Below are positions 12,154 to 17,332 of a stretch of DNA of 64,000 nt, in pieces. The position numbers and the translations under genes were made by a program. The notes under the pieces are model-generated. The model was not told where the DNA came from. It saw only the letters and a program-made list of their open reading frames with translations, and ran no database searches. Positions within the stretch are counted from its first letter, which is position 1. The number at the start of each line of letters is the position of its first letter. The stretch lies in assembly GCA_001899855.1 (NCBI GenBank), contig MKWR01000011.1, forward strand, positions 62,001 to 126,000, given 5' to 3'. The stretch comes from Lysobacterales bacterium 63-13 (lineage in GTDB: Bacteria; Pseudomonadota; Gammaproteobacteria; Xanthomonadales; Rhodanobacteraceae).

Positions 12154-12575
12154 TCACCACTCCAGTTCTGCGTGCCACGGCCGGACTTGATCGTCGCACG
12201 CTTTTTCTTTTCCGTGATGCGGCGCTCCTTGGATGCGCGCGTCGGCCGCGTCGCCACGCGCTTCTTCGCCACAAACTGGCCGGCACGGATGATCTCGGCC
12301 AGGCGCGCGCGCGCATCATCGCGATTCTTCACCTGATCACGGAAGCGATTGGCCTGGATCACCAGCACGCCCTCCGCCGTCAGGCGTCGATCGCGACGCG
12401 CCAGCAGGCGCGCACGCAAGGCATCCGGCAGCGACGGCGAATTCGCCACATCGAAACGCAACTCCACCGCGCTGGCGACCTTGTTCACATTTTGCCCACC
12501 AGGCCCCGACGAACGCACGAACCGTTCGACCAGTTCGTCATCGGCAATCCGCAGGTTGTCATCGATCTCAAACAT
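12150..12575 (-). CDS. arfB: Alternative ribosome-rescue factor ArfB (YaeJ family, GGQ motif)
   Basis: FVRSSGPGGQNVNKVASAVELRFDV; basic C-terminal tail KKRVATRPTRASKERRITEKKKRATIKSGR. Confidence 0.93.
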   Translation of the reverse strand: MFEIDDNLRIADDELVERFVRSSGPGGQNVNKVASAVELRFDVANSPSLPDALRARLLARRDRRLTAEGVLVIQANRFRDQVKNRDDARARLAEIIRAGQFVAKKRVATRPTRASKERRITEKKKRATIKSGRGTQNWSGD

Positions 12576-12918
12576 CCCGGCATTCTAGCCCGGACTGACC
12601 CGGACATCCGCCGAGGTAGCAGAAGCCAGCCAGATCAAGCCCACCCCAACGCAATCACTCGGCAACTCCCCCAGATGCTGGTCCCCGGGCGCACGCCCCG
12701 GGCGGAGGGAACGGAAACCATCGCTCGCCCCCGGATCGAGTCCGGCGCATGCTCCGAGCGAGCGCCGCAGGCGCGAAGTCGAAAGGTCGCCAAGAGCGCC
12801 TGGTGCATCGAAGCGCCCGGAAATACCCCAGAATCCGACCAACGAATACGACCGCACCATGATCGAACAACCACGACACGCGCCGGAAACGCCACGCAGC
12901 TTTTGCGCAATAAGCCAT

Positions 12919-12925
12919 GTTAGGC
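12919..12925 (+). other. attC/attI-type R' core (GTTAGGC), 5' boundary of cassette 1
   Basis: GTTAGGC upstream of the lipoprotein ORF; nearly complementary to R'' GCCTGAC of attC1. Confidence 0.6.
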
Positions 12926-12985
12926 TGATGGAACAGATCCCATTTTAGGATCGGGTGGAAGTAAAGCCTTACTGGGAGTTTATTG

Positions 12986-13342
12986 ATGCTGAAGAAAATC
13001 ATGGTTGCAGCCTTTCTCGCAGTGCTTGTGGCAGGCTGTGCCACCCACGGATCCAGCCCCGCCGTCGCGCGCATTGATGCTTCCACCGCAGCAACTGCGG
13101 ACGCTTCCTACAATGCGATGTTCGACAGGTTGCCGCAGGCCAAGAAGAAGCAACTTGCTTTGGCGGTCCTGACCATCAACATGATTGGCGTCAACAGCGC
13201 CAGAGAGGTTGTTGAGAATCCGGAGCTTCAATCTCCGACAATTGGTCGCATCAAGGATCGTGTCGCAGGCATGTCTGCGGACGAGATCATTGCCTACGCC
13301 GAAAAGAACTCAACTGTACGGATTGAGGTTCACGATCGGTAA
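12986..13342 (+). CDS. Cassette 1: small predicted lipoprotein
   Basis: MLKKIMVAAFLAVLVAGCATHGSSPAVA (lipobox VAGC); stop codon abuts attC1. Confidence 0.75.
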   Translation: MLKKIMVAAFLAVLVAGCATHGSSPAVARIDASTAATADASYNAMFDRLPQAKKKQLALAVLTINMIGVNSAREVVENPELQSPTIGRIKDRVAGMSADEIIAYAEKNSTVRIEVHDR

Positions 13343-13343
13343 G

Positions 13344-13398
13344 GCCTGACAAGTCAGCCGAAGCCGCTTCGCGGCTCGGCTTAATTCAGGCGTTAGCG
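13344..13398 (+). other. attC1 site
   Basis: GCCTGAC-aagtcagccgaagccgcttcgcggctcggcttaattcaggc-GTTAGCG; internal stem gccgaagccgc/gcggctcggc. Confidence 0.85.
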
Positions 13399-13436
13399 CG
13401 CAGAAGCACTTCATCACATTTCTAGGGGAAGAACTG

Positions 13437-14234
13437 ATGATCAAGATTCCGAAGAAAGTTGCAGATCGCTGGCCGAATTCCGTCCGCGCACTCACGACCG
13501 TGGCTATTTCCCACAAGACCAAAGATGTCTCTGAAGCGGATACCGTCACGCTCGTCAAAGACATGCTCGCGGACATTTTTGGCTATGAGAAGTACAACGA
13601 GCTCACAAGCGAGCAACAGATTCGGGGAACGTTCTGTGATCTGGCTGTACGCATTGACGGCAAGATCCGCGTGCTCATTGAAGTCAAAGCTGCGGCTCTG
13701 AGCTTGAGCGAGAACCACCTTCGCCAGGCCATTAATTACGGAGCACATGAGGGAATCGAGTGGGTTGTCCTGACCAATGCGCTTGAATGGCGTCTCTATC
13801 GGATCAAGTTCGGACAACCCGTTGACTGGGAGTTGGTCTCGGCATTCTGCATTGCTGATGTAAATCTCAAGAATGAAGAAGATCAGCGCAAGTTGTTCTT
13901 GCTATGCCGCGAGGGAATCACATCAGATGCAATGGGCATTTACCACCAGCACATTTCTCTGCTCAACAAATTCACAGTCGCACAGGTTCTTTTGTCCGAG
14001 CCAGTTGTATCGTGCGTCAGGCGTGAAATGCGCCGCTACTTCCCAGAACTGAAAATTGAACCAGAGAGTATTTCTGATCTACTCACAAACGAAATTCTCA
14101 AGCGTGAGGTCATTGACGGGGAAAAGGTCAAAGACGCGCAACAGCGCATAAAGAAAGCCGCTGCAAAGAATGCGCGTGCGCAGTCAAAGGCAGCACCAAA
14201 GCCTGTTGCTGCAACGAGCGACACGAATGAATAG
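13437..14234 (+). CDS. Cassette 2: type I restriction HsdR N-terminal-like (PD-(D/E)XK) stand-alone protein
   Basis: GTFCDLAVRIDGKIRVLIEVKAAALSLSENHLRQAINYGAHEGIEWVVLTNALEWRLYRIKF resembles HSDR_N; stop abuts attC2. Confidence 0.75.
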   Translation: MIKIPKKVADRWPNSVRALTTVAISHKTKDVSEADTVTLVKDMLADIFGYEKYNELTSEQQIRGTFCDLAVRIDGKIRVLIEVKAAALSLSENHLRQAINYGAHEGIEWVVLTNALEWRLYRIKFGQPVDWELVSAFCIADVNLKNEEDQRKLFLLCREGITSDAMGIYHQHISLLNKFTVAQVLLSEPVVSCVRREMRRYFPELKIEPESISDLLTNEILKREVIDGEKVKDAQQRIKKAAAKNARAQSKAAPKPVAATSDTNE

Positions 14235-14238
14235 AAGC

Positions 14239-14299
14239 GCGCTAACAAGTCGGTAAGAGACTTCCTGCCTACGGCAGCCGCTGAACTCAAACGTTAGGT
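14239..14299 (+). other. attC2 site
   Basis: GCGCTAAC...CGTTAGGT; R'' GCGCGCTAAC (14237-14246) is the exact reverse complement of GTTAGCGCGC at 13392-13401. Confidence 0.88.
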
Positions 14300-14334
14300 G
14301 CCGCGAGGAGGTAGCCGCAACGTGAGCGATTCCA

Positions 14335-14694
14335 ATGCATATGCCGCACCCGTCTGACGAGCAGCAGTCCGTTCCCCTTGAGTGGCGGCCAGCACTCGAA
14401 AGGGCGGCAAGTGCCTTCGCGGCAGGCGACTTCAAGCTGCAGGGCCTGAGCGGCGTCGAGCCCACGTCTGCTTCCACTGCCTCGCAAGTGCGCGAGTATC
14501 TGACGGACTACGGCGCTACTCTTGTGCCGGTGCCGAATGAAACCTGGGACTCATCAGTGTGTATTTGGTCCGGGCATCACTGGGATGTGCTCGTAGACCT
14601 CTGGACCCAGGAGGAAGGTTGCAGTGATCTGGTCATGCACGCTCACGTGGCCCCATCGGGCGTTGTCAGCATCCACGCCGTGTATGTGCCCTAA
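14335..14694 (+). CDS. Cassette 3: DUF7668-like small protein
   Basis: 119 aa; YLTDYGATLVPVPNETWDSSVCIWSGHHWDVLVDLWTQEEGCSDLVMHAHV; stop abuts attC3. Confidence 0.65.
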   Translation: MHMPHPSDEQQSVPLEWRPALERAASAFAAGDFKLQGLSGVEPTSASTASQVREYLTDYGATLVPVPNETWDSSVCIWSGHHWDVLVDLWTQEEGCSDLVMHAHVAPSGVVSIHAVYVP

Positions 14695-14698
14695 CGGG

Positions 14699-14815
14699 GC
14701 GGCACCTAACAATTCTCAAGAGACCTCCCGTCAACCCCGGGGCGAGTGATGCCGTTGCCCTGAGCTTTCAGGCCTTTGCTGGTCATTAAATTGATCCTTT
14801 GTTTCTTGCTGCGTT
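14699..14815 (+). repeat. attC3 left half (R'' GCGGCACCTAAC) plus shared module, copy A
   Basis: GCGGCACCTAAC is exact reverse complement of GTTAGGTGCCGC at 14293-14304; downstream ~105 bp resembles 15997-16104. Confidence 0.75.
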
Positions 14816-15017
14816 GCCAGTTCGCATCGTGACGGTACGGTTGTCAGACTGCATTTCCTTCCCACAAAAGGGGACTTCCATCGGTCGCTACGGTCTTGTT
14901 GAGTCGCTGCTGCTGACGCGGACTTGGGGCTGACCGCACCCGGAGACCCCGTTCATTCATCGGGTTCGTCGGTGCTCGAGGATCAGTAGAAACACATTGA
15001 GACGGCCGGATGGATGG

Positions 15018-15371
15018 TCAGGTTCTGACGAAGTCCGCGATTGTCGTGAAGTGCGGCTTGGCATCGCCGCTGATCGCGATGAACAGGACATTGTCCCGAC
15101 ACGCCGTTTCGATACGTCGTGAACTGATCAGGCCTTGGGAGTAGGCGAGCAGAACCACCTTCAGCAAATTGGCCGGCGAATGCGCTGGGGCGCCGTTGTC
15201 ATCGTTGCGGTAATGCATATCGAACGCCGAGAGATCCAGATCGTCCACCCGATGATGCACCGCATTGGCAAACGTGCCAGGAACCAACTGCGACTCCAGA
15301 TCCACCGGCAATAGCAGTGGACTCAGGTCAACATGCCGATAACAAGCCATCCACAAATACCCCTTGTCCAC
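15018..15371 (-). pseudogene. IS1182-like transposase N-terminal remnant
   Basis: DLESQLVPGTFANAVHHRVDDLDLSAFDMHYRNDDNGAPAHSPANLLKVVLLAYSQGLISSRRIETACRDNVLFIAISGDAKPHFTTIADFVRT then stop; far shorter than a full transposase. Confidence 0.75.
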
Positions 15372-15415
15372 GTACGGCTATTGCAGCAAGATCGGCAGAG
15401 TTTTTCTGCAGCCTC

Positions 15416-15422
15416 GTTAGGC
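15416..15422 (+). other. attC-type R' core (GTTAGGC), 5' boundary of the last cassette
   Basis: GTTAGGCGTC vs GAAGCCTAAC at the other end (one mismatch to reverse complement). Confidence 0.65.
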
Positions 15423-15453
15423 GTCGTGAAATCACCTTGTTGGCAAACGATCC

Positions 15454-15999
15454 ATGGATGAGAAGCTACTCAAAAGGTATCGTCAATACGCAAGTACGGA
15501 AGAAGCATTTGCGGTTCTTCTGGTGAAAAAGCATCTTGCCCAGTCGAAAGGATACTGGGTCGACGTCGTCAACAGCCGCCGCTTCGAGATGTCGTCCGAC
15601 AGCATGCACTTCCGCTTCGTGGTAGGCAGCTTGTTCAAAAGGAAGATTCATCCGAAGTATCCCCCACGTTCGGATTTCACAATCAACGGAAGATTCGACG
15701 AGCGTGCCTACTACCTAATGACGCGTGCCCTAACGTGGGAAGCGGCACACACTGACATCGAGCAGCAGAAGGCCAAACAAGTCTCGCCGCTAAGGTTCGA
15801 GATTAAAGGCGTACGCTATGACAAGAATGAAGGCAGTAAAGGGTATTTCAGGAATGATGCACCACCAGAGATCAAGTCGTTGGAGAAGAATCTGCTTGAT
15901 CGGACGAACCCACTATGGGATGTTGCTGACCAATTTCTTAATGGGCCCGAGTTCGTTTATGAAGTTCGCCAAGCCCGAATCATTCCGCACGAAGCCTAA
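15454..15999 (+). CDS. Cassette 5: hypothetical protein, no family recognised
   Basis: 181 aa ORF whose TAA stop lies inside the attC R'' (GCCTAAC, 15994-16000). Confidence 0.7.
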   Translation: MDEKLLKRYRQYASTEEAFAVLLVKKHLAQSKGYWVDVVNSRRFEMSSDSMHFRFVVGSLFKRKIHPKYPPRSDFTINGRFDERAYYLMTRALTWEAAHTDIEQQKAKQVSPLRFEIKGVRYDKNEGSKGYFRNDAPPEIKSLEKNLLDRTNPLWDVADQFLNGPEFVYEVRQARIIPHEA

Positions 16000-16104
16000 C
16001 GATTCGCAAGTGACTTCCCGTCAACTCAGGTCGTGTAGTGCCTTTGCCTTGAGCATTCGGGCGATTGCTGGCCATCGGTTTGTTCCTTAGTTTCTCGCTG
16101 CTGC
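15994..16104 (+). repeat. Terminal attC (R'' GCCTAAC, degenerate right side) plus shared module, copy B
   Basis: taacgattcgcaagtgacttcccgtcaactcagg... aligned without gaps to copy A at 14707-14815. Confidence 0.7.
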
Positions 16105-16324
16105 GAATGCCTCAATACCAATGAGGCATTGGGAATCGATATACGCTACGAAATCTGTTTCTATCCAAATGGCACAAACTGGCGGTCAGTTCCCCAGCCG
16201 GAACCAGCGTGCACGGATAATGCGAATGATTGAACTTCGCGGCTGCAAAGCACCGGGAACCAGGATCACCTAAAGCGTCAAGGCTCTTGATTACGTTCCA
16301 TCTCGAAACTCATCTGAGGAAGCA

Positions 16325-16522
16325 ATGAACTCATTCAACACCTTGCACTGGCTGATCGTACTTCTCTGGCTGGCGGTCTTCATCATCCCCGCCTGGCGAA
16401 TCGCCGCAAAGGCCGGCTTTCCCGGAGCGGTGTCCCTGCTCTTGCTGATTCCGGTCGTCAACATCGTCTTCATCTGGGTCTTTGCGTTCATCAAATGGCC
16501 AGTCGAGAAGCCGAACGCCTGA
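16325..16522 (+). CDS. Small two-TM hypothetical membrane protein
   Basis: 65 aa MNSFNTLHWLIVLLWLAVFIIPAWRIAAKAGFPGAVSLLLLIPVVNIVFIWVFAFIKWPVEKPNA. Confidence 0.6.
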   Translation: MNSFNTLHWLIVLLWLAVFIIPAWRIAAKAGFPGAVSLLLLIPVVNIVFIWVFAFIKWPVEKPNA

Positions 16523-16639
16523 TGCTTGAGTCGAGGGGACGCCGTCCGGCACGCCGATCACCGGCGCTCATGTTGTTTGTTCGACCTCGTGAAATGGGGC
16601 CGCGGCGGACACCCAAGCCAAAGCCTTGAAGCGCCAGCC

Positions 16640-17332
16640 TCAGGCGCTCGCAATCGTCCAGCCAAAGCGTTCCAGCAATCCGCCGAATTCGGCGTCGAGC
16701 GGTGCCTCGATGTGCATACGCTTGGCCTCGACCGGGTGATCGAATTGCAGGCGCCAGGCGTGCAGCAGCAGGCGGTGCACGTTGTAGTGTTGCTTGAACA
16801 GGCGATTGTGTTCGGTGCGACCGTGGCTGGTGTCGCCGATCAGTGGATGGCGCAAGTGGGCGAAGTGACGGCGGATCTGCCGGTAGCGACCGGTTTCGGG
16901 CGAGACTTCGACCAGGGCGTAGCGTTGTTGCGGATAGCGATTGATGGCGATCGGCACTTCGATCGTGGCCAGGCGTTTCCAGCGCGTCAGCGCCGGTTTG
17001 CGATCGCTGTTCTCGCGCACGCCGGGCAGCGGGTAATCGATTTCGCCCACTTCCTCCGGCCAGCCGCGACAGACTGCGAGATAGGTCTTTTCGACTTCGC
17101 GCTGCATGAACTGGCGGCCGAGCGTGCCGGCCACTTCGGCATTGCGTCCGATCAGCAGCACGCCGCTGGTGGCGCGATCAAGCCGATGGATCAGGTGCAG
17201 GGGGCCATCGACAAGTGCCCGCACCTGGTCGATCAGGTAGACGTCGCCGTCGTTGACCAGGCGACTGCGATGCACGGGGATGCCGGCGGGCTTGTCGACG
17301 ACGACAATGTGTTCGTCGCTGTAGAGGATCAT
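16640..17332 (-). CDS. truC: tRNA pseudouridine synthase C (RluA/TruC family)
   Basis: MILYSDEHIVVVDKPAGIPVHRS...LIHRLDRATSGVLLIGRN...TGRYRQIRRHFAHLRHPLIGD. Confidence 0.9.
   Translation of the reverse strand: MILYSDEHIVVVDKPAGIPVHRSRLVNDGDVYLIDQVRALVDGPLHLIHRLDRATSGVLLIGRNAEVAGTLGRQFMQREVEKTYLAVCRGWPEEVGEIDYPLPGVRENSDRKPALTRWKRLATIEVPIAINRYPQQRYALVEVSPETGRYRQIRRHFAHLRHPLIGDTSHGRTEHNRLFKQHYNVHRLLLHAWRLQFDHPVEAKRMHIEAPLDAEFGGLLERFGWTIASA

Follow-up and report, generated by a model that had tools for sequence, protein, structure and literature searches.

Orphan attI heads at several loci per genome in Lysobacterales bacterium 63-13 and related genomes, and cassette turnover at three loci shared between relatives

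Copies of the integron head, consisting of the intI promoter and attI, occur without intI at several loci per genome, and at three such loci shared between species the cassettes have turned over with the breakpoint at the attI crossover. These orphan attI platforms, and the turnover at their crossover, are what is new here. In the window, by which we mean the whole 64-kb stretch analysed (C11:62001-126000 of a 3.75-Mb draft genome), one such head precedes four cassettes, and we are very confident in reading this locus as an integron array that has kept a relict attI. As judged from sequence comparison, former platforms without intI have probably remained sites at which a single IntI can place cassettes in trans.

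Results

The cassette array in the window

A first-pass annotation had proposed an integron cassette array beside arfB, with short ORFs on one strand and cassette starts complementary to the R'' of their own attC, and such an array is supported here. The ORFs are indeed short and all on the same strand, and the three complementarities, the mark of a gene cassette, are as described: GTTAGCGCGC (13392-13401) against GCGCGCTAAC (14237-14246) at 10/10 positions, GTTAGGTGCCGC (14293-14304) against GCGGCACCTAAC (14699-14710) at 12/12, and GTTAGGCGTC (15416) against GAAGCCTAAC (15991) with one mismatch (9/10). Taken alone they are moderately rare and not compelling, since a Markov null yields about 1.15 pairs of at least 10 bp, and 0.125 of at least 12 bp, per 64-kb strand. 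The decisive support comes from an independent attC covariance model and from the attC1 hairpin. This model (R2) describes 60-bp attCs with 20 base pairs and was trained on 16 sites from other genomes only; its training alignment covaries strongly, with both-side changes in 37 cells versus 14 when shuffled. It recovered the first of the two attCs that the annotation had placed here with high significance and the second weakly (Table 1; for attC2, E=0.22 over 64 kb and 0.015 over 4.5 kb without filters). Bottom-strand folding, which the annotation had suggested as a check, bore out attC1, which folds far better than shuffled sequences, and did not bear out attC2. Given the low score of attC2 and a hairpin that does not surpass shuffled sequences, we hold it to be a probable but not proven attC. 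It also contains, at 14254-14265, the IS110-family terminal motif TAAGAGACTTCC, perhaps the scar of a lost insertion.

Table 1. Features of the array and its head in the window
Feature	Position	Strand	Evidence and remarks
Orphan head: decayed intI promoter region and attI, without intI	12802-12967	+	nhmmer E=3.6e-11, 40 bits
Putative extended -10 of cassette promoter Pc, CATGTTAGGCT	12916-12926	+	alignment of 15 heads
attI inner palindrome GATCCCATTTTAGGATC (GATCCCATTGTGGGATC in intact copies)	12936-12952	+	head alignment
attI crossover position	12961-12968	+	reads GTAAAGCC, not GTTRRRY; decayed
Cassette 1	12962-13392	+	ORF 12986-13342, 118 aa, lipoprotein-like; DUF6694 PF20404 E=4e-6
attC1	13344-13398	+	model R2, 39.2 bits, E=4.2e-8; bottom-strand hairpin z=-3.9
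Cassette 2	13393-14293	+	ORF 13437-14234, 265 aa; HsdR-N-like domain PF13588 E=9e-7
attC2 (weak)	14240-14299	+	model R2, 14.7 bits; hairpin z=-0.7; R''/start 10/10
Cassette 3, to R'' of own attC	14294-14710	+	ORF 14335-14694, 119 aa, DUF7668 PF24705 E=2e-26; R''/start 12/12
IS110-family (IS1111-attC-like) non-coding end remnant, in attC3	14711-15024		82% to L016:11864-12159
IS1182-like fragment	15025-15415	-	truncated transposase ORF 15018-15371, DUF772 PF05598 E=1e-12; 76% to L227
Cassette 4	15416-16000	+	ORF 15454-15999, 181 aa, no family; ends in R'' 15991-16000
Second IS110-family end remnant, in cassette 4 attC	15995-16101 (C11:77995-78101)		79% to L016 copy

The array has one strong and one weak attC and two interrupted ones (attC3 and attC4), the definition of a CALIN being at least two attCs with no integrase nearby. 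No Rfam family matched the array, a strict attC regular expression gave zero matches in the window, and padloc found nothing convincing among the window's four cassette proteins.

Behind cassettes 3 and 4 lie remnants of insertion sequences that sit within attC sites; these segments are not themselves attCs. The first remnant is also related to complete IS110-family elements, and the minus-strand fragment behind it belongs to what we take to be the IS1182 family. Fragments of the latter kind end at GTT, followed by variable sequence, at six loci (including window 15360-15425, L227, L232, L233 and L089), as if the IS end supplied the R' half of an attC. A long VCR-like attC behind R'' was considered and rejected: no R' lies at a fitting distance, the copies are alike over hundreds of bases, and one complete copy, with an IS110 transposase, is inserted within an attC. 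This complete copy (L222, in G014; PF02371/PF01548) lies between the R'' spacer and L''. Insertion within attC is the habit of the IS1111-attC group according to literature cited in PMC12444791, and L222 agrees with that group in its IS110-family transposase and in its position, whereas the window keeps non-coding remnants only. Contigs C11 and C36 both terminate in the IS110 repeat, a possible cause of these assembly breaks.

A relict attI head before the array

The annotation had let the array start at 12919, a position that lies within a head which it missed (Table 1). A cassette start at the GTTAGGC found there was rejected because the intI-linked copy has its crossover, with a matching R'', 45 bp further on, and 12919 falls in a promoter-like motif. 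This motif, CATGTTAGGCT, is conserved in many heads; we infer for it a promoter role, as a putative Pc driving the cassettes. A motif common to all promoters is excluded by its distribution, CATGWTAGGCT being present in 334 kb of own sequence at four heads only.

A search of the own genome with the array start first revealed the intI locus and a pair of heads on C36. An nhmmer profile of intI-linked heads from three other species, run against 390 kb of the own genome, gave convincing matches only at the intI head, the two on C36 and the window copy. Model R1, whose training includes the window head, scored it at 85 bits (C11:74818-74967) in a whole-genome search. The four heads share about 155 bp, corresponding to the intI promoter and attI, and one of them carries intI. 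The window site is homologous to the attI of the resident integron, with a decayed crossover triplet (GTT to GTA). The window attI is probably now inactive; with its crossover triplet and attC2 both degraded it gives no sign of an active copy, and current activity there is unlikely.

The absence of intI from the whole 64-kb window, noted in the annotation, is correct, and none adjoins the window attI; a remnant of intI was looked for beside arfB and not found. The own genome nevertheless has an intact intI at C11:149453-150394 (minus strand, 479 bits to TIGR02249), about 75 kb from the array on the same contig and the only TIGR02249 match above cut-off in that genome. The annotation had left two options, a CALIN or a larger integron deprived of its integrase. 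The array without adjacent intI stands; the lost integrase does not, and the locus is a separate array with its own relict attI and intI-promoter copy. By itself it is probably a modest, decaying CALIN, yet not a bare one, since it is attI-headed.

The closest named relative of IntI is in a Dokdonella MAG, a Rhodanobacteraceae MAG also being close, and on this ground we assign the organism to Rhodanobacteraceae. The intI-linked attI has the crossover GTTAGGGC (L016:10614), which pairs with R'' GCCCTAAC of its own first cassette. The product of that cassette (L016:10642-11868, equal to C11:150642-151868) is a protein of 408 aa that matches HATPase and DUF4325 and, in padloc, DrmA (E=3e-19). A near-perfect palindrome in the intI promoter, TGTAGGAAATTTCCTACA, is found at L016:10533-10550 and in the intI-linked heads of G003, G006 and G008; intI-linked heads preserve it, whereas most orphans have it in decayed form, and it is a possible regulator site. 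G006 has two intI genes (L215 and L216, on C87 and C124), 80% and 65% identical to that of the own genome, and the less similar one shares the own genome's flank.

Among the relatives, arfB and rluA, which flank the array (window 12575-16640; L252-L256), are adjacent in G001, G002 and G007 and separated by other, differing material in the sister genomes G003-G006. The window array thus appears particular to its own lineage among the genomes compared. The possibility, raised in the annotation, that the same ORFs and spacers are syntenic and fixed in all relatives fails in this comparison, the interval being variable.

Orphan heads across genomes

Model R1, with stricter filters, was applied to about 40-41 genomes, most of the relatives being drafts, and returned 39 heads in 11 of 41, eight linked to intI and 31 without it. 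There are seven each in G003 and G008, five each in G005 and G038 and four in the own genome (G000), generally with a single intI, G006 having two. Model attCs follow 18 of the 31 orphan heads on the same strand, mostly at 270-970 bp; the opposite strand at orphan heads gave none, and neither did six control stretches taken from the own contig. The other 13 have no downstream model attC, and some of these run off contigs or into insertion sequences.

Truncated 5' ends of intI persist at several orphans; G005_C47 retains about 45 core codons and G038_C31 about 40, with shorter remnants at G038_C2, G038_C6 and the left head of C36 (C36L), and the same flank carries a head with intI in G014 and a head only in G004. 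The crossover GTT, read off the sequences by eye, is kept in 27 of the 31 orphans. In orphans the attI half is more alike than the intI-promoter half (62 versus 45% mean pairwise identity), the corresponding values in intI-linked heads being 66 and 60%.

C36L lies directly behind the gcvP stop with its short piece of intI, and a head sought at gcvP in four relatives was absent. The right head of C36 lies behind an amidohydrolase gene, like heads in G003 and G006. Two other species of the genus of G038 gave no head with a G038 query. In a tree of the short heads, of limited support, C36L groups with the intI head of its own genome and G003_C55 likewise with its own. At L247 (G008:C14, 5000-8430) two orphan heads form a tandem at a distance of 3.4 kb, and the cassettes of the first precede the second.

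Seven orphan loci are common to more than one species. Between G003_C77 and G008_C14a homology extends over 3 kb of flank and the head and stops 3-4 bp past the crossover; the stop lies 5-7 bp past it in G003_C55/G008_C6 and G004_C2/G005_C97. Beyond this point all three pairs carry unrelated cassettes, and in two of these three clean pairs one member has no model attC nearby. The intI truncation point is identical in G003_C55 and G008_C6. At G004_C8/G005_C52 conserved flanks on both sides enclose a stretch that is different in the two genomes. Turnover at an orphan attI, apparently later than the species split, is seen in three pairs of relatives, the window copy having no orthologue for comparison.

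Discussion

The simplest reading of the orthologous pairs is that heads without intI were present before the species diverged and exchanged cassettes later. The shared head-flank junctions suggest that intI was already gone in the common ancestor, and a later exchange would then need IntI from elsewhere. Turnover of the proximal cassettes could instead have preceded an independent loss of intI in both lineages; this is disfavoured by the same shared junctions.

We propose that the window locus is a former integron platform whose intI is gone and whose head and four cassettes are left, decaying under insertion-sequence hits. Platforms would multiply, and redundant copies of intI would be lost by truncation from the outer side. 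Since IntI is diffusible, the leftover attIs would stay usable, with cassettes inserted and excised in trans, and one integrase would serve several loci with separate promoters. That enzyme-less docking sites have changed their cassettes at three loci suggests that one IntI elsewhere serves them all, and we infer that the turnover was done by it in trans. Such use of orphan attIs in the group is, on the comparative evidence, fairly likely. With somewhat less assurance we incline towards a distributed integron, in which one IntI maintains scattered attI/promoter platforms, each with its own cassettes, and in which, to the same degree of belief, an array lacking an integrase can be a live outpost and not a dead fragment.

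Complete integrons may alternatively have been acquired repeatedly, each losing intI and leaving an inert array, the cassette differences being older. The truncated intI ends, the decayed crossover and IS-hit attCs of the window and the published view of CALINs as degraded integrons (PMC9024848) agree with such fossils. We nevertheless consider this account unlikely, since orthologous heads share their junction with the flank, yet differ in cassettes from the crossover onward, and since attI halves are better conserved than promoter halves. A different origin of the heads, compatible with use in trans, is that a piece with the intI promoter and attI moved together with cassettes, for example as a circle that formed at a secondary site before being inserted again. 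The start of most orphan heads is close to that of intI, with no intI body upstream, and the position of C36L after the gcvP stop, empty in four relatives, is in line with this. It is doubtful all the same, for the graded intI remnants and the locus at which G014 has intI but G004 lacks it fit deletion better, and no core site is seen at the left junction of C36L. An assembly error that displaced the arrays from the intI locus is very improbable: C11 and C36 do end in a repeated IS end, but the window array is internal to the 152-kb contig C11 with unique flanks, and orphan heads occupy orthologous places in independent genomes. Negligible, finally, is an ordinary CALIN whose cassettes entered at an attG, a site other than attI, with attI likeness by chance. 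The reaction at attG is established (Loot et al. 2024, as cited in PMC12444791), but the homology of the head extends over about 165 bp, the intI promoter included, with only four matches in 390 kb, and this refutes the idea for the head.

CALINs are commonly regarded as degraded remnants. Should many of them turn out to have an attI of their own, they may be working capture sites, and several cassettes at once would then hold the first, best-expressed position. IntegronFinder looks for attI in class 1 only (PMC9024848), and attI-headed arrays would have been missed because attI is not searched outside that class. The orthologous orphan heads make trans-activity directly testable.

Within the open-access literature we found no description of one intI serving several arrays that each begin with an attI. 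CALINs and complete integrons occur in roughly equal numbers (PMC9024848), and CALINs are found at conserved loci (PMC12444791); CALINs and single attCs are described in Shewanella (PMC9229058) and intI loss in Treponema (PMC3607928). The window array resembles CALINs in having attC cassettes without an adjacent integrase, as those at conserved positions away from intI in Xanthomonas (PMC12444791), and differs in being headed by a recognisable attI and a copy of the intI promoter. With the sedentary chromosomal integron of the Xanthomonas ilvD locus, whose intI is inactivated, it shares attI and cassettes by a damaged or missing intI, whereas here several heads per genome lie at different loci and one intact intI lies elsewhere. 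The Delta-attI cassettes of class 1 and 2 integrons (PMC12901181) likewise have attI away from its usual place; there, however, a partial attI replaces the attC downstream of an ORF within one array, whereas here a whole head precedes separate chromosomal arrays.
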